Assembly (NCBI GenBank): GCA_947561395.2
Contig: OX387185.1
Location: 17,820,366 to 17,884,365 of the forward strand
Length of the DNA: 64,000 nt
Source: Buxus sempervirens
Lineage: Eukaryota; Streptophyta; Magnoliopsida; Buxales; Buxaceae
Direction of reading: 5' to 3'
The position numbers and the translations under genes are program-made. Shown one piece after another: positions 4,728-62,042 of the stretch; within the stretch, counting starts at the first letter, position 1; each line of letters opens with the position of its first letter. Under the pieces are notes generated by a model. The model was given only the letters and a program-made list of their open reading frames with translations, did no database searches and was not told the DNA's origin.

Positions 4728-4898
4728 AGAGAAAATATTAGTGCCAATTTAATCTCATTCACGAGCCTATGAATGCCTATGTGCAAGTTGGGTGAACACG
4801 AGTTTGGATTTGTTTCTTTATTTGCTTCATTTTTTTTTGAATTGAATTGTTGAAATATTGTAGGGCTTCCAACAGGTCCCACAAAAAAAGAAAAGGAT

Positions 4899-5620: not shown

Positions 5621-5755
5621 AGGATTTTCTCTCACATTTTATTTATTTATTTTTTTTGAAGCATTTTATTCAAACTCATTTCCCTTTATCATTATTTAAA
5701 GGTTAAAGGAACAAGATTTAGTGGGAAAATTGATTAAAATTAAATTGTCCGGGAA

Positions 5756-5888
5756 AACCGCATATACAGTACTGTCCGGTCTTGCCCGCATTGAAATTAC
5801 AAGCAAGCCGTGACCGTATAGTTAGAACGGGCAAGCCCAGCCCGTATAACAAATACGGACGAGCCCAACTCGTGTTATAATTGCGGTT
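5756..5888. repeat. Palindrome array, E1 leader, 5 units, 28-bp period
   Basis: Units of 21 bp start at 5756, 5784, 5812, 5840 and 5868, exactly 28 bp apart. Each is a 7-bp arm, a 7-nt loop and a 7-bp arm, with a 7-bp spacer between units. The clearest is GCCCGTA, loop, TACGGAC at 5840. Several arm letters have drifted (C to T, G to A), but the spacing is untouched. The arms match the family in the LTR of the same element (8711-8815). Confidence 0.9.
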
Positions 5889-8710: not shown

Positions 8711-8815
8711 GCCCGTAAATGATTTACAGTCCAGTGGTGTCCGTATATGTATTACGGGTGCTGCGTGCCTGTGTACAAAATCCGGGCGTACTTAGCCAGT
8801 AGATACAATACGGTC
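8711..8815. repeat. Palindrome array, LTR1, 4 units, 28-bp period
   Basis: Units start at 8711, 8739, 8767 and 8795, exactly 28 bp apart, each 7-bp arm, 7-nt loop, 7-bp arm. Compared with the intact array in LTR3, several CG positions have become TG or CA (GCCCGTA has become GCCTGTG at 8767), as expected from deamination of methylated cytosine. The array ends 103 bp from the U3 end of the LTR. Confidence 0.92.
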
Positions 8816-9139
8816 AAGGCTCAAGTTATTGAATTTCATGCATTTTTGGCTTGTTTTAAATCCCAATTACATGTTTTCATTATTTTCTCATTTTGTAGTG
8901 CAATTTGGGGTGTATACACCTTCATAAACTTAACCAAGCCTTCATTTCGTCCTATTGATCAAGCCCTCGGTGATCTCGGTGTATTCCTTCAACTCGCGGT
9001 GTTGGATTGGCAATGACGAAGCAAATAAGCCAGCCCTAGTGAAAACCGTAACAGGCACTAGGGGCAATATTGGCCAGAAAAAGGCAAAAGAAGAAAAAAA
9101 AAGGGGTAAAAAACTGCACTATGGGTACAGATTGGTCCA

Positions 9140-9227
9140 AACCGCATTGTTCATACGATTTTAGCAGAAAGGTCAGGCAACCGCATATTAAAGGCGGTTT
9201 TGGCTAAACCGATCTAAATGCACGGTT
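9140..9227. repeat. Palindrome array, E0, 3 units
   Basis: Units at 9140, 9179 and 9207 (steps 39 and 28), with arms AACCGCA/TACGATT, AACCGCA/GGCGGTT and AACCGAT/CACGGTT around 7-nt loops. It lies downstream (minus strand) of antisense block A and close to the E1 insertion point. Both spacings seen elsewhere occur here together. Confidence 0.85.
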
Positions 9228-9644
9228 TTGAGTAGCAGACTTGAGTTGAGCAGATTTTCAGCACAACACTGAACCAGTAAGCACTGGCATGATCCCTGGA
9301 GATGGGAATGGAATTTAGGGATGAGTCTAAAGGTTCAAAGGTTGACGAAATGGATTCTTCCCTATTATTTAAAATACCCTTTTTGCCCAACTTACTTTAA
9401 TTCATCAAACTATATGTGATTAAAGCATCATGGACCAATTTATAACAAAAACACACAAAAAAGAAAATTATATTTTGGCCGATGATGAGAAATCAATGAC
9501 TTTTCATTAAAATGTTAGTTTTTACAAGCATATGAGAGTTCTGAGACCAATAGTATAAAAATCTATTTTGTATTCTTTATCTTTCCGCTAATGGAGTTTC
9601 TCTTTGTACAAAAGTAGAAAAAAGGAAAAAATACAATAAAGGGG

Positions 9645-11296
9645 CTAATCTCTATCCCCTAACCTCTCCTTGAGCTCTCTGATCCGAGCTGCCTGAACCG
9701 CGACTAGCTTCTCAGCCCCCTCTGCATTCGGGTCGCTGAGGAAAGAAATGACATCATCTGAGAGGGTCTGTCTGGTCCTCATATCTCTGAGCCTGGCCAT
9801 GGTCTCATCGTGCCTACGCCATGCGGCTCTAACCTCAAAGCGACGGGCCCATATCTGCTCTGCGAGCCGTCTCTCCAAGTCTTCCTTCTCCAGTCTCATG
9901 ACTCGGGCTTCCTCTATCCATATGTGCTGGAGCTGCCTATGGAAGCCCTCTCAATCTCTAGAAGATCCTCGTAGGTAGGACATGGGATAGCAGAGGGATC
10001 CACTGGTATAGAAGCACAACACTGCGCCTGCTCCCTAATCCAGAAAAGGTAGTCCTTCTCATGCAATTTGGAGAAGACAGGACCACTCAAGAAGCAGGCA
10101 TGAGGCCATTCCTTCACCAAGCGATAGCACAGCCCCATGGTGGCTGGTGTGAGAGGGCCAATGAACTCCTCGTAGCCCTAAGGTACCAGGATCCCCTGAG
10201 CCTCCTCTATGAACTGCCGGATGACTCTCAAAGGCAAATAGAGCAAGGCAGACCTCAAGCCTATAAGCACGACAAAATTCCGATCTGGGAATCTGATCAC
10301 CGTCTCGGCAGAGGGCTGATAAGTACCAGGCCATCTCACCTGGTCATCCTGGAGAGTCCCTAAGAAGACAAACCACCCCCTCTTGCCTCCTGGGATAGAA
10401 GGACACCCCCGGTTGTTCATCAAAGTGAGAACATCCATGTTCCGGGAAAAGTGCCTGTCTATCTCCTCCACCTGAGACAGATGATCCAAAAGCCAGAGTT
10501 GCAAAGAAAAGGGAAGCATTTTCAATTTAGAAAATTTCAATTTTACAATGAAAACTGTAATTCAAGGAAGAGGTTCAGATTTTACCTGAAGGATAGGGGC
10601 GCAGGCGAGGAAACTCTTCTTCTTCCGATGATAGCAGTCAGTCAAGGCCTGGTATATTTCAGCCAGGATCATAGGGGCAAGCCTTTCACGCTCCCTAACT
10701 TGGAAAATGACTGAAATGAGGGATAAATCAACCTCGCTATCATCTCGGGGGAACAAAAGTTGGTTGACCACTATCAAGGTCAAAGCATTGAACCGGGCCG
10801 ACTGGTTCGAGCTATTCAATAGCTTTTCAGTCAAAAATGACTTTGATAGGGTCAATAAGGCGTCAGCTTCCCCTAACTCTTTCTTGCCAATTCCTAAAAA
10901 AGTAGAGGCTTCCTTTTTGAAGCTTGGTTTGAGAGGTGGGTTGACTACCTTTTTGGAGAACCTAATATTGAGGATGGTTTCAACCTCCTCGACTGTAGGG
11001 GTCATCTCCTTCTCCCCAAACCTGAAAAGGTTTAATTGGGGTTCCCAATGCCCAATCAATGCCTCTATGATCTCCCATTTTAGGGAAACCTTTGGGAGTG
11101 AGAGGATATGGCCTAGATTGGTAAAGTCCCAATCTATTTTGTCTTGATGGGTCATTGAGTCAACCCATTTCTCATAGCAGGCATCTACAATGGCATACCT
11201 TGTCAGATTGGGAGCATTGGATCTAATGGTTGGTCTAGGTGCTAATGTTTCAGGTACAGAGGATGAAGAAGGCATAGAAGTTGAATCAGAGGCCAT
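9645..11296 (-). pseudogene. E0 antisense block A: DUF7745-like frames and coiled coil
   Basis: Several separate minus-strand frames. The frame at 10562-11296 starts MASDSTSMPSSSSVPET and holds the family wording IDWDFTNLGHILSLPKVSLK and EALIGHWEPQLNLFRFGEKE. The frame at 10178-10540 looks like the second half of the same kind of domain (WFVFLGTLQDDQVRW). The frames at 9914-10138 and 9645-9899 give a Glu/Arg-rich likely coiled coil. Such proteins are common in plant genomes, often beside Ty3/gypsy elements, and their function is unknown. The gaps look like introns, which extra genes of these elements can have. I do not claim a working gene. The DUF assignment is from memory of the wording. 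Confidence 0.6.
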
Positions 11297-11426
11297 TAAT
11301 GGTCAAAAGTGGATTAAAGGCAGCTAGGAGAGAGAAAATCGCTGAAAAGAGGGTTTTTGACCTAAGCAATACGTCAAAGTGATGTTCTGCCTGCGATTCG
11401 CGACTTTAAAATTACAAAAGGGCAAA

Positions 11427-11544
11427 AACCGCATACTTAGAATGGTTGTGCCTGAACTGAACCCAAAGCACAGTTGCATTTCTGCAAAGTTTAAAAACCG
11501 TGGGACAAGTGCGGTTCTGGCACAACCGCCCTGTATGTACGGTT
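11427..11544. repeat. Palindrome array upstream of antisense block A, 4 units
   Basis: Units start at 11427, 11455, 11496 and 11524 (steps 28, 41, 28). The clearest are AACCGTG, loop, TGCGGTT at 11496 and AACCGCC, loop, TACGGTT at 11524. The near edge lies 131 bp upstream of the ATG of the minus-strand frame that starts at 11296. It therefore sits where a promoter of that gene would be. Confidence 0.85.
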
Positions 11545-11786
11545 TTTGCACAAAAACAGTTTTTCCTCTTTCTTTTAATAAGTAATGTTTCCAAAAATAC
11601 CTGTTACTTGTATAGCAGTTATATCATGATAAGAAGCAAATAAAAAGCAAAAAAATCAAAGAAAAGAAGCAAAAGTGAATAACTATCTCTTTTACATACA
11701 AATGCAAATGGATACATCATTTTTTATATATACAAATTTCAGACGTAGAAAGGGAAAAATCCTAACCTAAATCTATCTCCTACAGG

Positions 11787-14601
11787 TCAATCCCCACCGC
11801 CTCCGCATTGCCATCGCCGTCGAATAAAAAAATGATCTGAGAAACGCAGGCTGGCAGGAGAAGACGGGTCATCGAGAGTAGAGGGACCAACTGGAGGCAC
11901 TGGCTCGACTGGAGGCGCCGACTCAACTGAAGGGGCAGGAACTGGATCGTCTGGACCATCACGGATAAGATCCATATAGCAAGAAACCGAAGTGTCTATC
12001 TCCAAGGGGACCAGATCCAGAATCCGAGAATCCTCAGCAGCAGGAGATGAATCAATGTCTATAGGGTCCGCTGAATCATGAACCTCTACCACCTCAGGCT
12101 CGGGTGCATCATGCACATCCTCCTCCATCGTAGGCTCAGCTGCCTCAGGGATCGCAGAAACCTCAAAGCCACCCTCCTCTGGCTCCGTGGCAATCACAGG
12201 ATCCTCCTCAGGAGTAGTCTCTAGCTCGGGAGCACTCTCAGGCATAGAGGCAACCTCCGGCAGCTCAGCTGGCTCAGGAACGGTAGCAGAAGTAGCCTTG
12301 GCCGCTATCTCTGTATCTCTCTCTGGGATCTCTGCAGCCTCTGCAGAAAGAGACACGGTACGGGAGCTGGATGGTGAAGCTACCACATCCTCCTGAAAAT
12401 GGAAAAAGCTGGATCAGAAGCAGAGAATATAAAAGATAAAAAGCAGAAGTTGAAAAGGATAGAAGCATGACCTGAACTCCTGAAGGCCCCGCCTGGCCTT
12501 GAGCGCTGGCCAGCTGAGCCCGCAAATCAGCAATAAGAGCAGTCTGTCCGGTGATGATGACGTCGTTCTCAGCTATAACAGCATCTCTCTCAGCCAGCTG
12601 ACGCTCTAGATCTGCATATCTAGCTCGGATCTCCCCTAACTGTGCCTCCTGAAATGAGAAGAAACGAGTTTCAATAATTTCAAACAAGGAAGAAGCTAAA
12701 AAGAGTGGAGCAGGAGGAGATTTATACCGTGGTATCATATAGGCGGATCACCACCCCTCTGATCTCGGTAACTCCACCTCGAACGGGCATGGGCTACATA
12801 AGACAACCCACTGAGACCTGCCCGAACCAGGCATCATAGTCACCCTCGGCTAAAAGGGTATCTCCAGCCACCCAATCGCCAAAATGAGCCGGGTCAAATG
12901 GACCAGGAGGGGTGAAAGGTGCTGTATCTGGAGGAGCCACGGGGATCCGGAACTCGCCAGTGTGCTGGAAGAAGAAGCGCTCGCCGAGGTACCATATGCT
13001 ACCCAGCTGCCCGATAAAGAACGAGTACGTCTGACGTTGCTGATCTAGAGCCAACGCCTCGTCCACAAATGGCTGAAAAGCCAACTCATCATGAAGGCCA
13101 TCTAGACAGGGAACAGATAGCTGAAAATAAACAAAGATGAATGTCAGATTCTCGAAAAAGGGGGAAAGAGAATATAAGAATAAAAGGAAAGTGCTTACCT
13201 CCCTCCTAAAGGTCCTGTCCAGGTGAGCCCTGGTTGACCTAGGGCGGCTCTTCTCTGAGTCGCGCCTAATCTGACTCCATCTACGGGCCACAGGGAATGT
13301 CCCCTCAGGCAATGTGGAGGTTGGGCGAAAGTGGGCCACATAGACCCGAGCAAAGAACTGAAAGAAAAAAAAGAGAAAGAAAAAAAGATAAGCAAAAAGA
13401 AAAAGAAAAAAAAAAGAAAGAAAGAAGAAAAGAAAAGAAAAAAAAAGAGAGAAAGAAGAAAGAAAAATGAATTCATACCTACAGAAAAGGCCAGAAAAAC
13501 CTTCAACCAACCCCAGCTCTTCTGGGAGAGGACAGGCCAGAGACCACTCACCGCAGACCCGCCAATAGGGTACCGTAGACAAGCTGGCCCCAAGCATAGT
13601 CCCTCACTCGAGGCAAATCCCTGAGAAGACTCAAGAAATGAGGGCTGACTGAGGTGGTATCCTCCAAGCAGAAGCACGACCCCATCATCAAGAGGAAAAG
13701 GAAGCGGAAGGCCACCGGGAAGCTAGGATGCTCCGCTGCCACGGTACTATATCTCCTCTCCAGGAAGGTCTTCCTCAACCAGGTCCGGGAAATGCGTATG
13801 ATCCTGCTCCTGTCCCATGCCTCCACTGGCATCTCCTCATATCCCAAAAGCTCGGCAATCTCCGAATCGGCCGGCCTATCCAACACAGTGATGACATCTC
13901 CAGTCATCCTGATCCCGGTAATGAGAGCGAAGTCAGAGGGACGAATCCCAATCTCTACATCAGGCAAGTGGAAGCTCAAGGTCTCTGGAAAAAACCACTC
14001 CATTATTGCCACTATCAGAGGACGGTCCTGACGAACGCCGGTGATGGTGATGAAGGGGCCAAACCCAAAACTGCCCATCTCTCGACGCAAGGGAGTCGAA
14101 CATGCAGCCAATGTCTCGACAAAAAGAGCCCAGCTCCCGCGATAATGAGAAGACGGGTAGACGAGGGGAATGTCAGCCCTAACGCCCACTGAAGGGTGCA
14201 TCCTCAGATCATGGAGAAGAGGAGTATCTCGGATCTGATCCGCTATCCCAGCAGGAATGGAAACTCGAGTCGCCTGGGCCTCTGCCCTACCTCTACGGTG
14301 AGCTCCCTGCAACCTCGAACCTCGGCAGCAGGCTAGAAATGCAAACAGGATGGGGTCAAGTTAAATGTTGTAAGGTAAAGGCCTGGATTTTGAAAAGAAA
14401 AGAGAATACCTCAGGGGTCGGCTCTCGCGAACCCCCGGATGCTCCAGAATCTGAATCTGAGACCTCCAGACTGCTGGAAGAGGAAAGATCAGGATCTGGC
14501 TCAGCCCTAGAAGAAGATGCCACATCGACCGGGTCCCTCCGAACCCTCGAAGATGAAGGCTCATCTGCGGGACCTTGAGAAGTGCGGCGAGTGCGGGCCA
14601 T
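11787..14601 (-). pseudogene. E0 antisense block B: plant-mobile-domain-like gene blocks
   Basis: A row of minus-strand coding-like blocks. At 14411-14601 there is a Ser-rich N-terminus (MARTRRTSQGPADEP). At 13548-14312 there is a plant-mobile-domain-like core (MGSFGFGPFITITGV, IGIRPSDFALITGIRMTG). About 13200-13330 and 12800-13110 give further domain pieces. About 12480-12650 is a coiled coil (RARYADLERQLAERDAVIAE). At 11787-12390 there is an acidic tail rich in Pro/Glu. The blocks are separated by pyrimidine-rich (minus strand) stretches with GT and AG edges, so splicing is likely. Plant mobile domains occur in host genes such as MAIN and in transposons and Ty3/gypsy elements. Whether this copy was ever expressed is unknown. 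Confidence 0.62.
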
Positions 14602-16038
14602 CTACAGGGTCAAATTACAGGGAGAAATTCATTATAAAGTCATAACTTTTAGGCGTTGTTTACATTCAAAGTTATCTCTCATGTTTTCTTTAAAATGGAT
14701 TTTCTTTAGACTAATTAATTCTATTTGGTTTAATGGAAAAAGGAAATCGGAAGAAACACTTCAGAAAGTGCCCGACCGAACCAGGATTTGATTTCTTTTA
14801 GTCTTTATTAATTTCTTTATTATTTCTGTTGTACATAAGAATTATATATAAGAAACAAAATTTCCTATATATCCTTCTTATAAACAAACAAAAAAAAAGG
14901 GAGAGAAGAAAGAAAAAAAAGAAAAAGAAAAAAAGGGGGGGTTTTTGAAGGGAGCTATTCAGAATTCTCAATTCATTTTCAATTTTAGAGTTCTGATGGG
15001 TTTACCAATTGCATAAAGCCCTAAACTTTTAAATGTATTTTACTTTTCAGGTTTACAGAGTGAAGGTAGTAAAAAGGACAGTCAAAGTTGAATTCAAGTT
15101 AAGAGGAAGTGGCAAACAAGGTGTTCAACTCAAGCCAAAATTTTCAAATTAGATGGAATACTTCAAGTACAGATTCAAGTAGGCAAAAATCAAAATTCTA
15201 ATCTGTATAAGCAGTTCAAAGACATGCACAGATTATTAACAGAATAATCAAGAGCTCCCAATGTCCAGAAAAAGAAAAGGTCAGGAGTCATGCTATCAAA
15301 TTGGCAAGGCATACAAATATACTAAGACAAATGCATTCAGCATACTCAAATGCCAGAACAAGATTTTAGACTGCCAAATCCAAAGCTTGTTTCGATTAGC
15401 CATCAAATACAAGCATCCAATTCAATGAGATAAATCAAGGTACGACAACAAATGAAATCTAGTTCATATTTTTGCCCAAGTTTAGGTTCACAGTTAAAGA
15501 GGTGAAGGGAAATAAGCAGATCATGAGCAAGCAACGAAATTGGGGACTCTTTTCAATCAAGAATGAGGAACCAAATTCATGCCTCAAACTAGCCCATTCA
15601 ATCAGGGAATCCATGCACAAATTTTCGGATTGAGCATTTGCAAGGAAGATAAAGTTTCGGCTACCTACTTGTTTCGGTCGAAAACATGGTTTTGCAAGAA
15701 AGATGGGAGCTTTGTCTCACTAAGAATTCAATCGAGGTCACTTGATCACTGTCTAAGCTCCCCTATCGTGTGAGCACAGAGTTTAGACAATGGTCGAGGG
15801 ATGGCAGAGGTGGGAGGATAAAGCCGTCGCCGAGCGTTGCAGAACTTCGGGCAAGAACGATCTGGCCGGAAAAACAAGGTTTCCAGAAGAAGGTTCGCCG
15901 TCGCCGGGGAAGAAGAGGAATGAAAACCGGAGGGGAGAAGCGGTCGCTAGAGAAGAGAGCGAGAGCTGGTTTCTCAAGGGATTGCGCAAGAGAAGTGGAA
16001 GAGTCGCGGTCATGGCCACGATTATATGCAACCTAGAG
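14602..16038. other. E0 spacer upstream of block B, no gene seen
   Basis: AT-rich sequence with a purine run near 14890-14940, then a GC-richer stretch at 15780-16020 that opens short overlapping frames on both strands without recognisable domains. On the minus strand it would be the upstream region of block B, and the GC-rich part could be its leader. A symmetric TATATATA stretch is near 14845. Confidence 0.5.
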
Positions 16039-16098
16039 AACAGCACAAACAGAGCGGTTGGTATTGAAATTGTCAAAAACCGCATTTCAGGTACGGTT
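16039..16098. repeat. Palindrome array, E0, 2 units, 39-bp step
   Basis: Units start at 16039 (decayed, arms AACAGCA/AGCGGTT) and 16078 (AACCGCA, loop TTTCAGG, TACGGTT), 39 bp apart. It lies upstream of block B on the minus strand and about 350 bp before the E0 3' LTR. Confidence 0.75.
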
Positions 16099-16430
16099 AG
16101 CACCAAAAAAATCGATTTTCAAAACTCTTTCCATTCTCTTTCAAGAGATTTGTGTCCAAGATAGTTGTGAATTGCAAGAAACACCACCCTATCAACTTTT
16201 GTTTTAAAATTTTGCTCAAATCTCACTTCAGAGCCACAAGTGCTCCGTGAGACGCGAGAAGAGGATCTGCCCCTTAAAGTTAGGGACTTTTCATTAGATC
16301 TTCTAAACAAATTCTTTTTCCAAAATCATATTTTGGAGTTCTTGTAAGTTATGATTGAATGGACATGATCTTAGGAAGCACAATTTGCGGGTCTTTTTGC
16401 TCTCCGCTGTTAATTGATTCCAATTCCAGC

Positions 16431-16440
16431 GAAGAGGGGG
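16431..16440 (+). other. E0 polypurine tract
   Basis: GAAGAGGGGG lies four bases before the LTR start at 16445. A purine run here primes plus-strand DNA synthesis in LTR elements. Its presence shows that the LTR to the right is the 3' LTR of a plus-strand element. Confidence 0.7.
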
Positions 16441-16556
16441 CAGTTGTAGAACCCCAAATTGCACTTCAATATAAGAGAACAGTCTAAAAGAACTTTAAAT
16501 GTTTTATCTGAGCTTTGACATGTGTCAAACACTCAAAAATACTCAAGAATGGTGCT

Positions 16557-16796
16557 AACCGCACTAAATATACGGTTTTTGAGAATTTATATGGTGTTAA
16601 CCGCACGGTTGATGTTCATGCTTCTTGCGTGAGCTGCCACGTGGCTTCTAGAAGTTTTGGCCGTTGAGCCACGTCGACAGTAATCATGACGAGCGTAACT
16701 GAATTGGAACCGCCCTGTATGTGCAGTTGAGGTGAATTTGCATGGAAACCGCATATAGAGTGACGGTTCTGTGGAAACCGCACTGTGTATGCGGTT
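16557..16796. repeat. Palindrome array, E0 3' LTR, 5 units
   Basis: Units start at 16557, 16599 (cut short), 16708, 16747 and 16776. Steps include 39 (16708 to 16747) and 29 (28 plus one inserted base). The best is AACCGCA, loop CTGTGTA, TGCGGTT at 16776. The array begins 112 bp inside the LTR and ends 203 bp before the TATA-like box, the same place as in the minus-strand LTRs. A G-box core CACGTG is at about 16637 inside the gap. Confidence 0.82.
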
Positions 16797-16998
16797 TTGC
16801 TTGTTTTGGGGATTTGCGAAAAGGCTCGATCTTCTAGCCTTATTTACGCATATTACCTCTCTCTCAGGGACTTGAACTCCCTATTTTACCCTCCAAAACC
16901 TCTAGATTTACATCAATTCAAGGCTTTAACTTGAAATTGGAACAATCTAGAGAGATTTTTGGGCATACCCTTGCGACTTTATTGCCCTTGGCTATGCC

Positions 16999-17006
16999 TG
17001 TAAATA
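16999..17006 (+). promoter_or_regulatory. Decayed TATA-like box of E0 LTR
   Basis: TGTAAATA within GCCTGTAAATAGAGGGG, matching GCCTATAAATAGAGGG of the other LTRs with one change. It fixes the promoter position in this LTR. Confidence 0.5.
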
Positions 17007-17619: not shown

Positions 17620-18480
17620 GGTCTGATTGGGCGGGCCCCATTGGAAGGCCCGCGGATTCCTTGGTGGGCTTGGTTGAGCCCACGTGTCCCTTGTGGGCCT
17701 CAGTCTAGCCTGAGAGGCCCTTTGGGCTTTGGTTCAAATGAATTGATTTTACTTTAAGGTTTAAGTTGGATTATTTAAATGGATTTCATGCCAAAAGTGG
17801 GCCGGGACTGTTTGTGGGCCCTTGAGTGGGCCACACAGTCGGTTGCCAAGTGATTTTGATTTATCTTTCTTATCTGTGCCAAAATGGGCCAAGCATTGGG
17901 CTTGGGGCCCTTTACCTGGGCTTGGACTTGAAAGCCCAAGTCTTTGTGAGTTAGGGTTTGGAAACCCTAAAATTGGTTCGATTTAATGGGCTTTAGCGGG
18001 CCCGATCGGCCCTACCCATGGTCTCGGCCAAACCACGCAATTCATGCATTAAACCACAGAACAAGGTTTGGGTGGGCCGCATTGGGTTTGGCCCATCTGA
18101 CTCAATCGGTTCATTTTACTTAACTCATTCATTTGCATGCTTTTGGGTTTATCGGGCTTGGTGGGCCCCATTGGAAGGCCCACAAATGTACCGAATTGGA
18201 CCGGTGGTCCAGGTCCCATGTTGGGTTTCCGGGTGACCCGGAAACCCTATTGGTTCACTTGGCTTGGTTCAAATCGTCACAAAATTCGGCAAGGAACACA
18301 AAAGGCATAAAAATTGTATTTCTGTGTGTATCCGGCCTTAGTTGCCGAATACACACAGGCCATCGGTGATCTGGCCTGAGTTGCCAGATCACCCCAAAAA
18401 TGGCCTTTTTCGGGCTTGGCCATTGGGGTGGGTTCCAGGGGTCCCTAGGGGCTGCCTAGGGATTGTGTGGGCTCCTGTGT
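17620..18480. repeat. TGGGCY-rich segment in S1
   Basis: At least fifteen TGGGCC/TGGGCT or reverse-complement motifs in about 860 bp, for example in GAGCCCACGTGTCCC and GTGGGCCTCAG. TGGGCY is the known plant site II motif bound by TCP factors. Whether these are bound here is inference. The segment is also the GC-richest part of S1. Confidence 0.6.
18330..18389. repeat. Palindrome array, S1, 2 units, 39-bp step
   Basis: Units start at 18330 (ATCCGGC, loop CTTAGTT, GCCGAAT) and 18369 (ATCTGGC, loop CTGAGTT, GCCAGAT), 39 bp apart. Pairing extends outward: GGTGATCTGGC faces GCCAGATCACC (11 bp, perfect), and TGTGTATCCGGC faces GCCGAATACACA with one mismatch. The family is different from the other arrays, but the geometry is the same. 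Confidence 0.85.

Positions 18481-19134: not shown

Positions 19135-19169
<35 letters not shown>
19135..19169. repeat. 35-base C run in S1
   Basis: Uninterrupted C from 19135 to 19169. The complementary G run could form a quadruplex. Run length in assemblies is often unreliable. Confidence 0.95.
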
Positions 19170-27460: not shown

Positions 27461-29442
27461 AAGGAAAAACAAAGAAACATGTCAGCTCCAATTTAATCCG
27501 AGTCACACACCTATAAATGTAGATAAGTGAGTTAGGTGAACACAAGTCCAGATTTATTTGTTTTTTTTTTATATATTCTTCTAACTTTTTTTTTAGGATT
27601 GTTGGAATATTTTAAGGCTTCAAAAGGTCCCACTAGATTTTAGATTGATTGGTTCGAAAAAGACCAACCAAAGGTTTTTTTGAATATTCTAGGGCTTCCA
27701 AGTGTCCCACAAAGATTCAATTGATTGGTACGAAAAAGACCAACCAAAGGTTTTTTTGGAATATTCTAGGGCTTCCACGTGTCCCACAGAAATTCAATTG
27801 ATTGGTACGAAAAAGACCAACCAAAGGTTTTTTTGGAATATTCTAGGGCTTCCAAAGGTCCCACAAAGTTTTGAGTTGATTGGTACTAAAAAGACCAACC
27901 AAAGGTTTTATGGAATATTCTAGGGCTTCCAAGTGTCCCACAAAGTTTTGAGTTGATTGGTACGAAAAGGACCAACCAAAGGTTTTTTTGGAATATTTTA
28001 GGGCTTCCAAGTGTCTCATAGAAATTCAATTGATTGGTTCGAAAAAGACCAATCTGTGAGATATGGAAAAATCAATCTAATGACTTCCTCCCTTCATCAC
28101 GCGGGATCAAATAAAACAAAGAGTCGCCACCATTCAATTTAGGTGTGAATGGACACCAAAATATTAAATAAGCACAAAAGGCAATTTTAGGGTAAAAATA
28201 ACCCTCCTAAAAAAACAACCAGAGATGGGTAAAGGGATTAAGTTATGAACAGGGGAAGGTGTTAGGCACCCCTATTCATCCACACAAGGTGGTTGCCAGG
28301 TATTGTTCATGTAATAATAAAGGAAAAAGCTTGCTATAAAAATCACAAAAATCACAAAAAAGGCAAAAATATATGGTTTTTTCATATGAATATTCTGATT
28401 GATCCAGAACTATCAAATATGATCATACCATTCTTAGAGTTTCATGATCAAAACAAAATTGAGATAAAATCAAATAAAATCAATTTAAAGTGAAAAATCC
28501 AAAAATCTGGCTTCAAGTCAAAATTCTAGAAATCTGGAAAAATATGATTTTTATAAAATATTTCAAAATTGAACTTGAATGGTCCAGGACATAGGTAGAG
28601 TCCATGTTTCACATTAAATCCAGAAATAAAAACCAAAAATACCCACGTTGATGAAGAACACCAAAAGGGGAGAATTTAGACCGTAGGGTCTTCTCTCAAA
28701 AGTGAAAAACGATTTAAAAACCACATCATGAAACCCTAGAATTTACTTTCAGGCTTCTAGATCCAGATCTATCATATTGATCATGATAAATCCAGGATCT
28801 TAGCCTAAAATCACGAAAATCACTAAAACAGTGCTGTAGGTGCAAAAGTGGAAAAATTCCAAATTTTAGCAAAAAGTGGGGATCTCATGCTATAAACATC
28901 ATAGATTCATGTAATTCATTCATATATATCATAAAAGGCATTAAAACATGATCAGGATATTCAAAGCAGTCACATCTCACAAATCAGAGCACATGGGGGT
29001 CTACCCTACGGATCCACCTGTTCTCTTTTCCCCTAGTTCTCTCTTCACGTTTTACGGCTAGAGAGACTCTTGAGGTACTTGGAGACAGGTTTGGGTACAC
29101 AAACACCATCACAGGCTTTATTCTAGAAAAAGAGAAAAACAGATATGGGGTTCTATTCTAGGGATCCACCTGTTCCCCTTTCCCCTAGTTCTCTCTTCAC
29201 GTTTTACGGCTAGAGAGACTCTTGAGGTACTTAGAGACAAGTTTAGGAAGACAAATATAACAGATGGCCTTATTCTACAGCAATAGAGATGATCCTATTA
29301 CATCTAGAATTGAAGACAGAAAATAAAAAGGGAAAAGGGACTTACCTGGATTGAGCAAGCAGAGCAGCAGGGATTCCTTTCCTTCTCTTAGAGCTCTTGA
29401 TTCTTCAAAATTTCGTGGCCTTTAGCTTGAGAATCTCACCTC

Positions 29443-29450
29443 TATTTATA
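29443..29450 (-). promoter_or_regulatory. TATA-like box of S2
   Basis: Minus strand TATAAATA in GCCTATAAATAGAGG. It lies 202 bp downstream of the palindrome array. Confidence 0.6.
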
Positions 29451-29651
29451 GGCAAGCACAGGGGCAAGGCTGGTCCAGAAGGATATATCCTGATCCTCAG
29501 GATAGAGTGAAAATTGGGGATAATGCTCATCCATAGCCAACCAAGGTGGCTTCAGCGAATAAAATACGTAATTCACTCATTTAAAGATATATTGGACTAA
29601 AGATAAAGCTCGGAAATCGAGAGAAGGACAAAACTCACACGTGTCTTTAGT

Positions 29652-29755
29652 GACCGTAAATGCACTACGGTCCAATGGTGACCGTATAGTTACTACGGGC
29701 GCGCCTGACCGTAGAGAATTTTCGGGCGCGACGGGCCCGTGAAGGAAATACGGGC
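29652..29755. repeat. Palindrome array, S2, 4 units
   Basis: Units start at 29652, 29680, 29707 and 29735 (steps 28, 27, 28). They are GACCGTA/TACGGTC, GACCGTA/TACGGGC, GACCGTA/TTCGGGC and GCCCGTG/TACGGGC, each with a 7-nt loop. Unit one shows a paired change from LTR3 (GCCC...GGGC to GACC...GGTC) with both sides altered, keeping the palindrome. The array ends 102 bp from the U3 end. Confidence 0.92.
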
Positions 29756-31241
29756 AAAGTCTGCTTAGTCAATTTTTATGCATTTTGACCTGTTTTAAGC
29801 TTTAATTACATGTTTTTATTATTTTCTCATTTTGTAGTGCAATTTGGGGTGTCTACACAATCAAAGGTTTTTTTTGGAATATTCTAGGGCTTCCAAAGGT
29901 CCCACAAAGTTTTGAGTTGATTGGTACTAAAAAGAGCAACCAAAGGTTTTTTGGAATATTCTAGGGCTTCCAAGTGTCCCACAAAGTTTTGAGTTGATTG
30001 GTACGAAAAGGACCAACCAAAGGTTTTTTTGGAATATTATAGGGCTTTCAAGTGTCTCATAGATATTAAATTGATTGGTACGAAAAAGACCAACCAAAGG
30101 TTTTTTTGGAATATTCTAGGGCTTCCAAAGGTCCCACAAAGTTTTGAGTTGATTGGTACTAAAAAGACTAACCAAAGGTTTTATGGAATATTCTAGGCCT
30201 TCCAGGTGTCCCACAAAGTTTTGAATTGATTGGTACGAAAAGGACCAACCAAAGGTTTTTTTGGAATATTCTAGGGCTTCCAAAGGTCCCACAAAGTTTT
30301 GAGTTGAATTGTACTAAAAAGACCAACCAAAGGTTTTTTGGAATATTCTAGGGCTTCCAAGTGTCCCATAGAAATTCAATTGATTGGAACGAAAAAGACC
30401 AACCCAAGGTTTTTTTTTTTGGAATATTCTAGGGCTTCCAAAGGTCCCACAAAGTTTTGATTTGATTGGTACTAAAAAGACCAACCAAAGGTTTTATGCA
30501 ATATTCTAGGGCTTCCAGGTGTCCCACAAAGTTTGGATTTGATTGGTACTAAAAAGACTAACCAAAGGTTTTATGGAATATGCTAGGGCTTCCAAGTGTC
30601 CCACAAAAGTTCAATTGATTGGTACGAAAAAGACCAACCAAAAGTTTTTTGGAATATTCTAGGGCTTCCAAGTGTCCCACAAAAATTCAATTGATTGGTA
30701 CGAAAAATACCAACCAAAGGTTTTTTGGAATATTCTCGAGCTTCCAAGTGTCCTACAGAAATTCAATTGCTTGGTACGAAAAAGACCAACCAAAGGTTTT
30801 TTTGGAATATTCTAGGGCTTCCAAGTGTCCCACAAATTTTTGATTTGATTGGAGAAAAGGACCAACCAAAGTTTTTATGGAATATTCTAGGGCTTCCAAG
30901 TGTCCCACAAAGTTTGATTTGATTGGTACAAAAAAGACCAACAAAAGGTTTTTTTTTTTTTATTTGCTGAATTTCCTCAGTTTTCAAGTTCAAAAGTTTG
31001 ATTGAAACATGTTTAAGGTGAATTGGTATCAAGAAATAGGACACCTTGGTTCCTTAGGTTTGAGGGAAAAATGGTAGATTTGTGTGTCAAAATTAGGTTA
31101 AATCCTTAGTGAGATTTTTTTTTGAACACTTGAATTATCTTTTCATATTCTCTTTGGGGTGCCCACAGATTATTCACAATGTTTTAGGCATTTTATTTTC
31201 AAAAATAGGATGAAAAATCAATTTGCCAATTTCCGGGCTGT

Positions 31242-31379
31242 ATCCGACATGTCAGATCGGATAAAGCTATGCTTTATTGTATCCGATGTAACTAATCGGA
31301 TACATACATAAACTTTTGTTACCGATGATATCTGTCGGATAAGAAGGTTATATAGTTTAACCGACCTGAGTTGTCGGTT
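31242..31379. repeat. Palindrome array, E2 leader, 4 units, 39-bp period
   Basis: Units start at 31242, 31281, 31320 and 31359, exactly 39 bp apart, with 18-bp spacers. Arms: ATCCGAC/ATCGGAT, ATCCGAT/ATCGGAT, TACCGAT/GTCGGAT, AACCGAC/GTCGGTT. In the last unit both outer pairs are changed together (AT...AT to AA...TT). The arm family is the same as in the LTR of this element (35366-35503). Confidence 0.93.
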
Positions 31380-35365: not shown

Positions 35366-35503
35366 ATCCGACAACTCAGGTCGGATACAAGTGAACATAT
35401 TTATATCCGACACATGTCATCGGATACAATAACACTTGCTTGTATCCGATGACTTCTGTCGAATACAATAAGACTTGCTTGTGTCCGATGTCTTCTATCG
35501 GAT
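35366..35503. repeat. Palindrome array, LTR4, 4 units, 39-bp period
   Basis: Units start at 35366, 35405, 35444 and 35483, exactly 39 bp apart. The first pairs perfectly over 11 bp (TTGTATCCGAC and GTCGGATACAA) around loop AACTCAG. Others: ATCCGAC/ATCGGAT, ATCCGAT/GTCGAAT, GTCCGAT/ATCGGAT. The array ends 104 bp from the U3 end of the LTR, as in the 28-bp arrays of LTR1, S2 and LTR3. Confidence 0.94.
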
Positions 35504-42454: not shown

Positions 42455-43050
42455 AAGACACCCTCATCCCGTCCGAACTGGCATAGGGCACCGCAGTACA
42501 ACTTCAGATGGCTCATGGGGCAGCCAGTGCCATCATATTTGTCTAGGTCCGGGCACTTAAACTTAGTTGGCAGGTTAACATTAGGGTACAGGCATAAGTC
42601 CTCAAAGTTGGTGCCCCTGAAGTTGTTCACCCCTTTTACTTCCCTCAGTTTGTCTTGGATCATTTCCAGTCTGTGCATGAACTTCATTTCAACTTCTTCC
42701 CTCATCTTTTCCTTTTCCCTAGCTTTGTCTGACTCAACTGTCTCATCCCTGATCAGTATAGGTTCAGGGGTGGGTTCATAAACGGGTTCAGGAATAGGTT
42801 GAACTGGATGTGGAATATTGATTTGCTGTGGAGGAGCTGGGTTGGAAGTAGATGCTTGATTTTGGGCTTGCACTTGTTGGGCCTGCACTGACAGTATGTT
42901 TTCTAGCATTCGGGCTAGTTCTACCACTTGCTCTTGTAGCAAGACAATATCTGGGTGAGGAGCATCAGCTTCAGTTTCAATGGGATTTATGGCGCGAGCT
43001 CTTGATCTGGTTACAGGAGCTATGATTGCAAGTGTATTAGTACCTGGCAA
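42455..43050 (-). pseudogene. E3 gag N-terminal part
   Basis: Fossil frame starting MPGTNTLAIIAPVTRSRARA with the Gln-rich stretch and the first half of the capsid domain, up to the S3 insertion. It closely matches E1 4110-4727. Confidence 0.87.
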
Positions 43051-43227
43051 AAAGATAAAGGAAAAATATTAGTGTCCATTTAATCTCATTCACATGCCTA
43101 GGAATGCCTATGTGCAAGCTGGGTGAACACGAATTTGGATTTTGTTTCTTTATTTACTTCTTTTTATTTTTAGAATTGTTGGAATATTCTAGGGCTTCCA
43201 ACAGGTCCCACAAAGAGAGAAAAGGAT

Positions 43228-44130
43228 CTGAAATTCAAAGGCTTTCAGAGGCCCAGGGGTATTTTTGGAAAAGGTCTGAAATTCAAAGGCTTTCAGAGGC
43301 CCAGGGATATTTTTGGAAAATGTCTGAAATTCAAAGGCTTTCAGAGGCCTAGGGATATTTTTGCAAAAGGTCTGAAATTCAAAGGCTTTCAGAGGCCCGA
43401 GGAGTTTTGGGAAAAAGATCTGAAATTCAAAGGCTTTCAGAGGCCCAAGGGAAAAAGATCTGAAATTCAAAGGCTTTCAGAGGCCCAAAAGAAAAAGATC
43501 TGAAATTCAAAGGCTTTCAGAGGCCCAAAAGAAAAAGATCTGAAATTCAAAGGCTTTCAGAGGCCCAAAAGATCTGAAATTCAAAGGCTTTTAGAGGCCC
43601 AAAGGAAAAAGATCTGAAATTCAAAGGCTTTTAGAGGCCCGAGGAAAAAGATCTGAAATTCAAAGGCTTTCAGAGGCCCGAGGATAAAGTTTGAAACTCA
43701 AAGGCTTTCAGAGGCCCAAAAGGAAAAAGATCTTAAATTCAAAGGCTTTCAGAAGCCCGAGGAAAAAGATCTAAAATTCAAAGGCTTTCAGAGGCCCGAG
43801 GATAAAGTCTGAAACTCAAAGGCTTTCAGAGGCCCAAAAGGAAAAAGATCTGAAATTCAAAGGCTTTCAGAGGCCCAAAGAAGAAGGTCTGAAATTCAAA
43901 GGCTTTCAGAGGCCCAAAAAAAAAAAAGATCTGAAATTCAAAGGCTTTTAGAGGCCCAAAGGATAAAGTCTGAAATTCAAAGGCTTTCAGAGGCCCAAAA
44001 GGAAAAAAATCTGAAATTCAAAGGCTTTCAGAAGCCCAAAGAGTTTTGAGAAAAAGTCTGAAATTCAAAGGCTTTCAGAGGCCCAAGGAGTTTTGAGAAA
44101 AAGTCTGAAATTCAAAGGCTTTCATAGGCC
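43228..44130. repeat. T2: leader tandem array of E3, about 22 copies
   Basis: Same unit as T1 (CTGAAAT, TCAAAGG, CTTTCAG plus AGGCCCA and an A/G spacer). Start-to-start distances run from about 34 to 48 bp, most often 39-40. It is longer than T1, so copy number has changed since the elements separated. Confidence 0.9.
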
Positions 44131-44246
44131 CAAAGGATTTTTTTTTTGAAGCATTTCATTCAAACTCATTTCCCTTTATCGTTATTTAAAGGTTAAAGGA
44201 ACAAGATTTAGTGGGAAAAACTGATTAAAATTGAATTTTCCGCTAA

Positions 44247-44379
44247 GACCGCAAACACAGTACGGTCCAGCCCTGCCCGTATTCAAATTACGAGCAAGCC
44301 GTGACCGTATGGAAAACACGGGCGAGCCCAGCCCGTATAACCAATACGGGCGAGCCCAGCCCGTGTACTAAATGCGGTT
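44247..44379. repeat. Palindrome array, E3 leader, 5 units, 28-bp period
   Basis: Units start at 44247, 44275, 44303, 44331 and 44359, exactly 28 bp apart. Arms: GACCGCA/TACGGTC, GCCCGTA/TACGAGC, GACCGTA/CACGGGC, GCCCGTA/TACGGGC (perfect, loop TAACCAA) and GCCCGTG/TGCGGTT. Spacers GAGCCCA recur between the last units. It is in the same place and register as 5756-5888 in E1. Confidence 0.94.
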
Positions 44380-45584: not shown

Positions 45585-45602
45585 TCCCCAGCGGAGTCTC
45601 CA
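45585..45602 (-). other. E3 primer binding site
   Basis: Minus strand TGGAGACTCCGCTGGGGA, two bases inside the LTR edge. One base differs from the E1 site. Confidence 0.75.
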
Positions 45603-46986
45603 GTTGTGAGACATGGGAAAAAAAATCAAATTCAATGACTTCCTCAATCATCACACGGGATTGGTTAAAAACACAGAGTCGCCACCATTCTGTTTAGGTG
45701 TGAATGGACACCAAAATATTAAATAAGCTCAAAAAGGCAAATTTAGGGTAAAAATAACTCTCCTAAAAAAACAACCAGAGATGGGTAAAGGGATTAGGTT
45801 ATGAACAGGGGAAGGTGTTAGGCACCCCTATTCATCCACACAAGGTGGTTGCTAGGTATTGTTCATGTTTTTCAAAGAAAAAAGGCTTGCTATAAAAATC
45901 ACAAAAAGACAAAAATGTATGGTTTTTTCATACGAATAGCCTGATTGATCCAGAACTTTCAAATATGATCATACCATTCCTAGGGTTTCATGATTAAAAT
46001 AAAATTGAGATAAAATCAAATAAAACCAATTTAAAGTGAAAAATCCAAAAATCTGGCTTCAAGTTAAATTCTAAAAATCTAGAAAAATATGATTTTTATA
46101 AAATATTTCAAAATTGAACTTGAATAGTCTAGGATATAGGTATGGCCCAAATTTCACATTAAATTTGAAAATCAAAACCAAAAATACCCACGTTGATGAA
46201 AAACATCAAAAGGGGAGAACTTAGACGGTAGGGTCTTCTCTCAAAAACGAAAAACGACTCAAAAACCATATCATGAAACCCTAGAAGTTACTTTCAAGCT
46301 TCTGGATCTAGATCTATTATATTGATCATGATAAATCCAGGATCTTAGCCTAATATCACAAAAATCACGAAAACAGTGCTGTAGGTGCAAAAGTGTGAAA
46401 ATCCAAATTTTATAAAAAAGTGGGGATTTCATGCTATAATCATCATAGATTCATATGATTGATTCAGATTCAACATAAAAACCATTAAAACATCAGCAGG
46501 ATATCCAAATCAGCCACATCTCACAGATTAGAGCACATGGGGGTCTACGCTATGGATCCACCTGTTCTCTTTTCCCCTAGCTCTCTCTTCACGTTTTACG
46601 GCTAGAGAGGATTCTTGAGGTACTTGGAGATAGGTTTGGTGATACAAACACAATCAAAGGCCTTATTCTATAAAAAAGGAGAAAAACAGATATGGGGTTC
46701 TATTCTATGGATCTACCTATTCTCTTTTCCCCTTGCTCTCTCTTCACGTTTTACGGCCAGAGAGACTCTTGAGGTACTTAGAGACAAGTTTAGGAATACA
46801 AGATAAAATATGGCCTTATTCTACAGCAATAGAGAAGATCCTATTATCTCTAGAATTGAAGACAGAAAATAAAAGGGAAAAGGGACTTACCTGGATTGAG
46901 CAAGCAGAGCAGCAGGGATTCCTCTCTTCTCTTGGAGCTCCTTGGACTTCAAATTTTCGTGGCCCTTTGCTTGAGGAAAGGCCCTC

Positions 46987-46994
46987 TATTTATA
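46987..46994 (-). promoter_or_regulatory. TATA-like box of LTR3
   Basis: Minus strand TATAAATA in GCCTATAAATAGAGGG, 200 bp downstream of the palindrome array. Confidence 0.62.
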
Positions 46995-47193
46995 GGCAAA
47001 CACAGGGTTATGGTTGGTCCAAGGTTTGGCAAGATAGAGTTTTAGATAGAGTTAAACACAAGGATAATGCCCATCCATGGCCAACAAGATAATCCAAACG
47101 AATAAAAGATATAATTCGCTCATTTAAAAGGATATTGGACTAAAGATAAGGCTCAGAAATCGAAAAAGAATAAAACTCGCACGAATCTAATGT

Positions 47194-47298
47194 GCCCGTA
47201 AATGATTTACGGGCCAATGGTGTCCGTATATGTATTACGGGCGCTACGTGCCCGTATATAAAATTCGGGCGCGCTTAGCCCGTAGGTACAATACGGGC
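47194..47298. repeat. Palindrome array, LTR3, 4 units, 28-bp period
   Basis: Units start at 47194, 47222, 47250 and 47278, exactly 28 bp apart. Arms: GCCCGTA/TACGGGC (pairing extends to 9 bp), GTCCGTA/TACGGGC, GCCCGTA/TTCGGGC, GCCCGTA/TACGGGC. Loops differ between units and spacers are 7 bp. It ends 103 bp from the U3 end. Confidence 0.95.
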
Positions 47299-47402
47299 AA
47301 CGCTCAAATTATTGATTTTCATGCATTTTTGGCCTGTTTTAAATCCCAATTACATGTTTTCATTATTTTCTCATTTTGTAGTGCAATTTGGGGTGTCTAC
47401 AT

Positions 47403-47479
47403 GTCCGCATACCATATGCGGACATGCCTTGTCCGCAGATCAAATGCGGACATGCCTTGTCCGCAAATCAAATGCGGAC
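47403..47479. repeat. Palindrome array, E4, 3 units, 28-bp period
   Basis: Units start at 47403, 47431 and 47459, exactly 28 bp apart. All three have perfect arms GTCCGCA/TGCGGAC, the first with ATGCGGAC. Loops differ slightly and both spacers read ATGCCTT. It abuts the right end of E3, so E3 inserted at or in this array. Confidence 0.95.
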
Positions 47480-57630: not shown

Positions 57631-57734
57631 AAAGTATGCTTCGCACATTGCAAATGGAAAATATGTATAGAGTATAGCAGGATTTTATGAACTTTTTCTT
57701 TTAGAAAAGGTACATTAAAAAGTCGATCTGAAAT

Positions 57735-58208
57735 GGGAAAATTAATTTTTAGTGGTATTTTATCAAAACATTTAAGATTTAGTCAACAAAGTTTTGAGTT
57801 TTAACTTTTATTGTACCTTTATCAAAATAATTAATTTTTAGTGCCATTTCACTATTACGAGTCAATTCTTCCAAAAATTCCCTTATACAACTTACTTCCA
57901 GGACTTGTACAAGCAATAAATTAACTTGTACAAGCCATTTTAGACTTGTACAAGCAATAAAATGACTTGTACAAGTCAATAAATTAGCTTGTACAAGTCA
58001 ATAAAATGACTTGTACCTTGAATGAGTGACTTGTACAAGCCATTTGGATGAGTGATGTAAGGGCATTCTTGGAATAGTTGATTTGTAATATTGAAATGGC
58101 AGTAAAAATTAATTATTTTGATAAAGGTGCAGTAAAAATTAAAACTCAAAACTTTGCTGACTAATTCTTAAATATTTTGATAAAGCACTACTAAAAATTA
58201 ATTTTCCC
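57735..58208. mobile_element. Mutator-type MITE, 474 bp
   Basis: Inverted ends of about 115 bp (left GGGAAAATTAATTTTTAGTG, right mirrored) with few differences, flanked by 9-bp repeats ATCTGAAAT (57726-57734) and ATTTGAAAT (58209-58217). The middle has six or so copies of the palindrome CTTGTACAAG with AATAAAT/CATTTT linkers. Length of ends and repeat size fit the Mutator superfamily. Confidence 0.85.
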
Positions 58209-58217
58209 ATTTGAAAT

Positions 58218-60073: not shown

Positions 60074-61492
60074 ATGGTAGCCTTAGGAGCTCTGCTTATG
60101 ATGGTGGTGCTACACCTTCTAGGCGATTTTTTCTGCACCACTTCTCCTACCATGGATTTTGTAAACTTTAATGTTCGAGAAACCATTGCAGGCATCAAAA
60201 TCCAGCCTTCTAAAGTGCTGGGATATGAGGAGCTCTCTAATGATGGCAAAGGTGAAGGGAAGTCGAAACTGAAGCTGGTTCACAGAGATGCAATCTCTTC
60301 ATCCAATATTTCCGATCATATAAGTCATTTCCACGAGCGAATGAAGAGAGATGCCAAAAGGGTTGCTAGCCTGACTCGCCGTCTGACTGGCGGTGGTAGT
60401 GGAGTTAGTTATGAGGTGGAAGATTTTGGGTCGGAGGTGGTTTCAGGTATGGATCAAGGGAGTGGAGAATACTTTGTAAGGATTGGTGTGGGAAGTCCCC
60501 CAAGCAATCAATACATGGTGGTTGACACTGGGAGCGATATTGTATGGGTACAATGTAAGCCTTGTAGCCAGTGTTACCCACAATCCGACCCGGTTTTCGA
60601 CCCGGCGTTTTCGGCATCGTTTGCTGGGGTGGCTTGTAGCTCCACCATCTGCGGCCGATTCGGGAATGCCGGCTGTGGGGGGGATCGGTGCCGGTATGAG
60701 GTCTCTTATGGTGATGGCTCATACACTAAGGGGACACTGGCCTTAGAGACACTGACCTTCGGCTACACCGTCGTACAGAACGTCGCCATCGGGTGTGGCC
60801 ACCGGAACCGTGGGATGTTTATCGGAGCAGCAGGCTTACTAGGCCTTGGAGGTGGATCGATGTCGTTCGTGGGCCAGCTTGGAGGCCAGACTGGTGGTGT
60901 ATTCAGCTACTGTCTAGTGAGCTGTGGGTCGGGCTCATCCGGGTTCTTGGTCTTCGGACGTGGTTCCATGCCTGTTGGGGCCACATGGGTCCCTTTACTG
61001 AGTAACCCACGGGCTTCAAGCTTCTACTATGTCGGGCTTTCGGGCCTTGGTGTGGGAGGAGTCCGTTTGCCAATACCTGAGGAGACGTTCAGGTTATCAG
61101 AAGAGGGTGATGGTGGTGTTGTCATGGACTCTGGGACTGCAGTAACAAGGCTTCCAAGAGCAGCTTACAAGATATTTTCTGACACATTCATCTCCGCCAC
61201 TGCAGCGCTTCCTCAGGCCTCCGGAGTGTCAATCTTCGATACCTGTTACAACCTGTCTGGGTTCGAATCTGTGAGTTTGCCAACCGTGTCATTTTACTTC
61301 TCCGGTGGGCCGGTGCTGACTCTTCCGGCGAGGAACTTCATGATGCCTGTGGATGGGGTGGGAACATTCTGCTTTGCCTTTGCACCCTCTCCATCAGGTG
61401 TTTCCATTATCGGAAACATTCAACAAGAGGGGATTCAAATATCCTTTGATGGAGCCAATGGATTTATGGGTTTTGGCCCCAACACCTGCTAA
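60074..61492 (+). CDS. ASPG2: Nepenthesin-type aspartic protease, ASPG2-like
   Basis: Intact intronless gene of 472 residues. A hydrophobic N-terminus (about 1-21) looks like a signal peptide and is followed by a variable propeptide. The mature enzyme starts near EVVSGMDQGSGEYFVRIGVG (121-140). Catalytic aspartates are D151 in VDTGSDIVWVQC and D352 in MDSGTAVTRLP; the flap Tyr is Y212 in SYGDGSYTKG. The plant-specific cysteine-rich insert has C161, C164, C167, C188, C193, C201 and C206. The C-terminus SIIGNIQQEGIQISFDGANG is that of the family. The wording matches Arabidopsis At3g20015 (ASPARTIC PROTEASE IN GUARD CELL 2) almost throughout. The relative ASPG1 acts in drought response in guard cells; a like role here is inference. 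The start is the first in-frame ATG (AAAAATGGTA). The reaction is cleavage of peptide bonds, probably in the secretory pathway or cell wall. Confidence 0.93.
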   Translation: MVALGALLMMVVLHLLGDFFCTTSPTMDFVNFNVRETIAGIKIQPSKVLGYEELSNDGKGEGKSKLKLVHRDAISSSNISDHISHFHERMKRDAKRVASLTRRLTGGGSGVSYEVEDFGSEVVSGMDQGSGEYFVRIGVGSPPSNQYMVVDTGSDIVWVQCKPCSQCYPQSDPVFDPAFSASFAGVACSSTICGRFGNAGCGGDRCRYEVSYGDGSYTKGTLALETLTFGYTVVQNVAIGCGHRNRGMFIGAAGLLGLGGGSMSFVGQLGGQTGGVFSYCLVSCGSGSSGFLVFGRGSMPVGATWVPLLSNPRASSFYYVGLSGLGVGGVRLPIPEETFRLSEEGDGGVVMDSGTAVTRLPRAAYKIFSDTFISATAALPQASGVSIFDTCYNLSGFESVSLPTVSFYFSGGPVLTLPARNFMMPVDGVGTFCFAFAPSPSGVSIIGNIQQEGIQISFDGANGFMGFGPNTC

Positions 61493-62001
61493 TTTAGTAA
61501 ATTTAAAGATGGGCTTTGCTTTTGTTTGCTATAATTATTACAGTGGTAGCAGTTTGTAGTAATAGTAGTGGCAGTGTTGTATTGTATGTAATGAAGCAGT
61601 TATAGGCATAGTAATAGAGGTAAAGAACTATGGTAAGTGAGATCTTAATGTGGTCACAGACCTAATTTTTTATCATGTCAAAGTTGTGCTTTTCTCGTAA
61701 GTAATGAAGAGTTGGGAAAGGAAAAAAAAAGAGACAAGTGTGCCAGTCAATGATCATGCTTGAGCACAGAGACACAATTTGAGGGAGAAAAAGAAAGAAT
61801 CCGAGAGTCAGTATGAGCATGTAGCAAGGTCAAGGTCAGGAAAAGGTGAATCACTTGAGCATTATCAAAGTGAAGTAATTGACCATCCTGGGTTCAAGTA
61901 TTAAACATCCCTTCTCCCTATTTCTCTTTTAATCCCTCCCTCCCCACACCACCACCCTCACCACCTCCTAACCCACCACCCCACCACACCCCCCACCCCC
62001 C

Positions 62002-62042
<41 letters not shown>

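Follow-up and report, generated by a model that had tools for sequence, protein, structure and literature searches.

Palindrome arrays in LTRs, leaders, and an antisense ORF region

The window, a single 64,000-nt stretch of Buxus sempervirens DNA (OX387185.1) to which all results refer, contains LTR retrotransposon sequences with arrays of short palindromes, or dyads, here grouped into families A to D (Table 1). In U3 of LTR3, a family A LTR taken as a 5' LTR, four units of a 7-bp arm, a 7-nt loop, a second 7-bp arm, and a 7-bp spacer begin exactly 28 bp apart, confirming the arrangement that the sequence-only reading had described. The array is assigned to U3 because the LTR terminus at 47401 (TGTCTACA), a PBS complement inferred at 45586-45602, and the minus-strand TATA CCTATAAATAG (46986-46996) are placed around it; it lies 103 to 207 bp inside the LTR edge and ~208 bp upstream of the TATA. 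The PBS is similar to the 3' end of tRNA-Arg.

The same layout had been proposed for LTR1, for the solo LTR S2, and for the array E4. All three do have it, with one S2 step of 27 rather than 28 bp and with decay of the LTR1 array; E4 lies outside the LTR3 U3, adjoining LTR3 externally. S2 occupies 28055-29857 with a 5-bp TSD, CAATC, and it is inserted into a minisatellite of 77-bp type (27602-28052 and 29870-30954), apparently part of the leader of the family B element. At 47533, 54 bp past the E4 array, we find TGTAACACCC, which is similar to how another plant gypsy LTR begins. A further minisatellite, with units of ~40, 48, and 80 bp, lies between gag and the leader dyads in both family A elements (43219-44142 and 4890-5628).

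Table 1. Dyad arrays and associated features in the window (steps in bp)
Feature	Position	Strand	Details
Family A, LTR3, taken as 5' LTR	45605-47401	-	U3 array inside
Family A, U3 array of LTR3	47194-47298	-	4 dyads GCCCGTA-N7-TACGGGC, step 28; starts 47194, 47222, 47250, 47278; arm variants GTCCGTA and TTCGGGC
Family A, leader array of LTR3 element	44247-44379	-	5 dyads, step 28; PBS-gag interval
Family A, U3 array of LTR1	8711-8815	-	decayed; starts 8711, 8739, 8767, 8795
Family A, leader array of LTR1 element	5756-5888	-	decayed homologue of 44247-44379
U3 array of solo LTR S2	29652-29755	-	4 dyads, steps 28/27/28; starts 29652, 29680, 29707, 29735
E4	47403-47479	.	3 dyads GTCCGCA-N7-TGCGGAC, step 28, perfect arms; starts 47403, 47431, 47459
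Family B, U3 array	35366-35503	-	4 dyads ATCCGAY-N7-RTCGGAT, step 39, arms to ~11 bp
Family B, leader array	31242-31379	-	4 dyads, step 39, half-site as in family B U3
Family C, U3 dyads	16557-16796	+	starts 16557, 16708 (one mismatch), 16776; half-site AACCGYA
Family C, dyads	11427-11544	.	11427 (one mismatch), 11455 (two mismatches), 11496, 11524
Family C, dyads	9140-9227	.	9140 (one mismatch), 9179, 9207; steps 39 and 28
Family C, dyads	16039-16098	.	16039 (one mismatch), 16078; step 39
Family C, antisense ORF with DUF7745/PMD domain	10562-11296	-	E 4e-22 and 2e-11

Families A and B are related, being ~80% alike in parts of the leader and LTR; the family B LTR edge is at 35607 and its TATA at 35189. 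In family C, the U3 dyads lie 112 to 351 bp inside a plus-strand LTR that starts at 16445, behind a purine-rich tract, and has a TATA-like sequence at 16999. Upstream of this LTR, minus-strand antisense ORFs occupy 9645-14360, and two of them have PMD/DUF7745 domains and coiled-coil-like tails. Only the 11427-11544 dyad group is found just upstream of a PMD ORF, 131 to 248 bp from its ATG, while the second PMD ORF is ~1.7 kb downstream of the 16039-16098 dyads, and the 9140-9227 dyads lie beyond the point at which the antisense ORFs end. With up to one mismatch, the window has 13 copies of AACCG-N11-CGGTT, all but one within 8920-16900; 20 shuffles gave 0.55 on average and never more than 2. 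All four family C steps of up to 60 bp are 28 or 39 bp, both being in use; longer ones (68, 69, 114, and 151 bp and beyond) follow no clear rule. Family D comprises palindromes at 18330 and 18369 (span, 18330-18392) of the ATCYGGC-N7 type, with a 39-bp step, in a long plus-strand LTR. They have the layout of the others with a core that is not exactly CCG-N11-CGG, and they were left out of the core count and included in the compensation tests described below. Their loop, CTGAGTT, recurs in family B units.

Among the ORFs scanned, we find Retrotrans_gag (PF03732) and RVT_1. RNase H and integrase gave no match among 19 ORF stretches, and no pol domain order of copia versus gypsy type is seen among the ORFs scanned; PMC6317226 gives an archaeal-type RNase H in pol as a marker of Tat/Ogre Ty3/gypsy elements, and the Tat/Ogre label, which comes from the sequence-only reading, is a putative one for the elements here. 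PMD has no match in the family A and B ORFs scanned, the pol-3' LTR parts of these families not being among the regions identified in the window. TRP28 has no match in family C ORFs, and a comparison of DUF1985 with the second PMD ORF falls below the cut-off (E 0.32). A single-sequence structure prediction for the antisense PMD product reached a mean pLDDT of 36, too low for use. The product of the 10562-11296 ORF is a candidate for an element-encoded regulator. An Rfam search at gathering thresholds and a tRNA scan each returned 0 matches. Viral contigs gave 0 matches to the array pattern and 0 to the LTR end, and the RT and gag patterns found 4 and 9 stretches there, with no confirmed relative.

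Elsewhere in the window, a stretch of ~480 bp (57731-58212) matches its own reverse complement at 83%; within it, at 57902-58016, are tandem repeats of the GACTTGTACAAG type. Poly-C is present as a pure 35-base run (19135-19169) and a nearly pure stretch (61971-62042), and a 472-amino-acid ORF with TAXi_N/TAXi_C aspartyl protease domains (60074-61492) is probably a host gene.

A common core in a fixed register

The arm families GNCCGTA (A), ATCCGAY (B), and AACCGYA (C) have the core CCG-N11-CGG in common, a feature which, together with the second arrays outside U3, had escaped the sequence-only reading. When all inverted triplets are ranked at 59 gaps, this combination comes out on top, with a score of 18.0 and the next at 11.0. 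It occurs at 39 sites in the window, compared with a median of 3 for CCG at other gaps and a maximum of 5 in 200 dinucleotide shuffles. Arrays hold 32 of these sites, 25 of them in arrays other than the homologous A1 and S2 copies, and 7 are outside arrays.

The spacing between dyads is similarly constrained. Every pair of exact sites within 80 bp (27/27) is 27, 28, 39, 55, 56, or 78 bp apart, and the three pairs that are off register by 1 derive from the one-base S2 indel. Inverted repeats with 7-bp arms, a 7-nt loop, and at most one mismatch form 11 links of 28 bp in the window, and no step from 22 to 60 bp gives more than 3 in 60 dinucleotide shuffles. The two steps differ by 39 - 28 = 11 bp, or roughly one turn of the helix, as would be fitting for a protein bound to DNA. 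A GAL4-like reading, CGG-N11-CCG (19 sites), was considered and rejected: in family A and E4 the half-sites alternate at 14-bp intervals, an arrangement that the 39-bp families lack.

The position of the arrays within the LTR is nearly constant, as the U3 array starts 102 to 104 bp from the LTR edge in all four LTRs of families A (S2 included) and B (104 bp in LTR1 and 102 bp in S2) and at 112 bp in family C. The distance from array to TATA in families A and B is 177 to 211 bp. Within one family, the U3 and leader arrays have half-site and step in common, while their loops differ; such likeness would also be expected if recombination had copied an array between the two places. A scan of 43000-44247, on the downstream side of the LTR3 element's leader array, gave no TTTATA-type TATA, so this array is not an obvious promoter element, and a role as a TATA promoter was set aside.

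Conservation of the arms and rival explanations

The claim that arms are conserved and loops are not holds for LTR3, in which mean identity between units is 0.93 for left and right arms, 0.43 for loops, and 0.19 for spacers. It does not extend to the leader array of the LTR3 element, with a spacer identity of 0.71, or to E4, where spacers are identical (1.00) and loop identity is 0.67. LTR3 and S2, which are ~90% alike downstream of the TATA (1242/1383), match at 51/56 arm, 13/28 loop, and 14/20 spacer positions and at 220/298 positions in the rest of U3 (arms versus loops, P 1.4e-5; arms versus the rest of U3, P 0.005; loops versus the rest of U3, P 0.004). The contrast is weaker between LTR1 and S2 (arms, 45/56; loops, 14/28; rest of U3, 216/299), and between LTR3 and the decayed LTR1 the arms (48/56) fall below the rest of U3 (284/299; P 0.017), a faster loss in LTR1 that is probably due to CpG decay. 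We read these alignments as apparent constraint among subfamilies while they were active; in individual copies that had died, the CpG-rich sites would then have decayed.

The earlier proposal had offered two explanations, half-sites paired for a protein or short RNA hairpins, and the first is the better supported. As hairpins, the dyads would fold in genomic RNA and serve in packaging, export, or Gag binding or as a Dicer/RdDM substrate. The arrays of U3 (at the 3' end) and of the leader are both in transcribed genomic RNA, the predicted folds of five arrays beat shuffles (z -5.7, -8.6, -10.3, -7.6, and -3.3), and Sirevirus LTR palindrome clusters have been linked to small RNAs, as reported in PMC10760457. 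However, any inverted repeat gives good z-scores, the folds often join arms of different units, and a stem has no need of a CCG in a fixed place. For 12 arrays (with family D), there are 239 matches between arms and their own partners, with 238.7 expected from the other units of the array (P 0.50), and 10 less redundant arrays give 198 matches versus 196.2 expected (P 0.33), despite a simulated power on these 10 arrays of 0.70 if 25% and 0.97 if 50% of units were compensated (40 simulations each). Since an arm matches its own partner no better than its neighbors, left and right arms behave as copies of one half-site of a symmetric protein. Likewise, by our own count, mismatches in 30 units of A, B, and S2 (210 pairs) comprise 13 G-U pairs on the sense strand, 15 found on the other strand only, and 16 others, so that wobble is no more frequent on the sense strand. 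The lack of unit-specific compensation thus favors protein half-sites, and we consider RNA hairpin arrays quite unlikely.

Two other explanations dispense with a function for the element. If the arrays were mainly targets of host silencing, CpG- and CHG-dense palindromes would draw methylation and play no positive role for the element. Family A arrays are indeed among the CpG peaks of the window, with 14 to 15 CpG per 140 bp at 47161, 29601, and 44241, and the CpG observed/expected ratio is 1.79 in LTR3 and 1.09 to 1.79 across the A, S2, and B arrays, with 0.45 for the window; the fast arm decay in LTR1 also fits. But stretches such as those at 15821 and 60581 are equally CpG-rich without arrays, and the account, which we consider improbable, leaves unexplained the fixed 11-bp gap, the 28/39-bp register, and the retention of arms in LTR3 and S2 alike. 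Still less probable is an ordinary minisatellite, or slippage on a palindromic seed, without function. TRF does report 28-bp tandem repeats at 44261, 47192, and 47402, and the spacers of E4 and of the leader are about as conserved as the arms, as in a young minisatellite. Such an origin does not account for loops that diverge beyond the surrounding U3 between LTR3 and S2 while arms are kept, for one core and one set of steps in three arm families, or for the near-constant position in the LTR.

A dimeric-protein reading and its relation to known systems

Drawing on the anatomy, the core, the spacing, the conservation between subfamilies, and the lack of unit-specific compensation, we favor the reading that the arrays are cis-regulatory sites for a sequence-specific dimeric protein on inverted CCG half-sites, to which we give a probability of about two-thirds; the protein, its dimeric binding, and activation are what we infer from these observations. 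A protein dimer, or a chain of dimers, would occupy two inverted CCG half-sites whose triplets are 14 bp apart from start to start, and several dyads in register, at 28 bp or at 39 bp (28 bp plus about one helical turn), would allow cooperative binding. The U3 array may then act as an enhancer or anti-silencing element for the LTR promoter downstream of it in families A and B, with the second array letting the same factor act at an internal site, which would be the leader in A and B and, in C, the sites upstream of the antisense ORF and elsewhere. The bases flanking CCG would confer family specificity and change together across the arrays of one family. A LOB-domain binder, considered as a candidate, found no support in a literature search.

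The arrays resemble yet differ from the CGG-CCG boxes of Sirevirus elements, which are the closest known system, and the earlier statement that no description was known is too strong. According to Bousios et al. 2010 (PMC2829016), the LTRs of these Ty1/copia elements contain palindromes (RM) with a CGG/CCG core and family-specific flanks, in many copies upstream of the TATA; they form CpG islands, and a second cluster lies internally, ahead of ENV. The same paper describes the function of the palindromes as untested and reports the motif to be missing from the classic copia elements in its comparison. Its Table 3 lists 13 consensi, all but one of which are CGG-N4..6-CCG, the gap being by our own count. 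The present arrays are also clustered in the LTR upstream of the TATA, and those of A, S2, and B are CpG-rich too, whereas the 11.4-kb family C group has an observed/expected ratio of only 0.70. In contrast to RM, the triplet order here is opposite, the gap is a constant 11 bp, and the steps are fixed at 28 or 39 bp; the short-gap boxes CGG-N4-CCG, CGG-N5-CCG, and CGG-N6-CCG occur only 3, 4, and 7 times in the window. Instead of a cluster before ENV, the second arrays here are in the 5' leader (A and B) or the antisense PMD region (C). In 2016, Bousios reportedly described palindromes in maize Sirevirus LTRs. A maize survey (PMC10760457) reports peaks of hairpins for copia LTRs but none that is obvious for Ty3 elements, and we found no description of such arrays for gypsy/Tat elements in the open-access literature.

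Other systems offer partial likenesses. The U3 of the Ty1/copia elements Tnt1 and Tto1 has tandem enhancer boxes, for which host stress factors have been shown experimentally, and the arrays here would similarly be repeated, if putative, transcription factor sites in a plant LTR U3; we know of no CCG-N11-CGG dyads in Tnt1 or Tto1. PMC2829016 mentions that box I of Tnt1 has a symmetry. In VANDAL elements, as summarized in PMC5735166, arrays of family-specific motifs serve the transposon-encoded anti-silencing protein VANC, and as here, dense, short, family-specific motifs in the noncoding DNA of a transposon diverge together. The VANDAL motifs are of YAGTATTAY type in one orientation, in a DNA transposon, and the self-encoded protein is proven, whereas here it is a candidate only. 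The gypsy element Retand, in the accessible portion of PMC11963269, has antisense TRP28 ORFs, suggested to be regulators, and tandem repeats between pol and the 3' LTR. Family C likewise has antisense ORFs, but these match PMD/DUF7745 rather than TRP28, and that portion does not call the Retand repeats palindromic. More generally, PMC11963269 and PMC7264820 suspect a regulatory role for the antisense ORFs found in gypsy elements, and one survey (PMC9289625) ranks PMD first in frequency among the atypical domains of plant gypsy elements.

An extension of the dimeric-protein reading that we regard as unlikely is that the arrays are address tags for an activator or anti-silencing protein encoded by the retrotransposon itself, the antisense PMD/DUF7745 product in family C, each family reading its own CCG flanks. 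If this is true, the arrays of U3, leader, and antisense promoter would switch specificity together, and LTR retrotransposons would have a VANC-like self-recognition in which the dimer geometry is fixed at CCG-N11-CGG.

In 2010, palindromic CGG/CCG boxes were reported as Sirevirus-specific among the copia elements compared; the arrays here are a counterpart to them, in other elements and with another geometry. For locating the regulatory region in plant elements of this kind, the arrays provide a simple, searchable rule: CCG-N11-CGG dyads in steps of 28 or 39 bp, set ~100 bp inside the LTR edge and recurring in the leader. They also make the identity of the factor, whether host or element encoded, directly testable.
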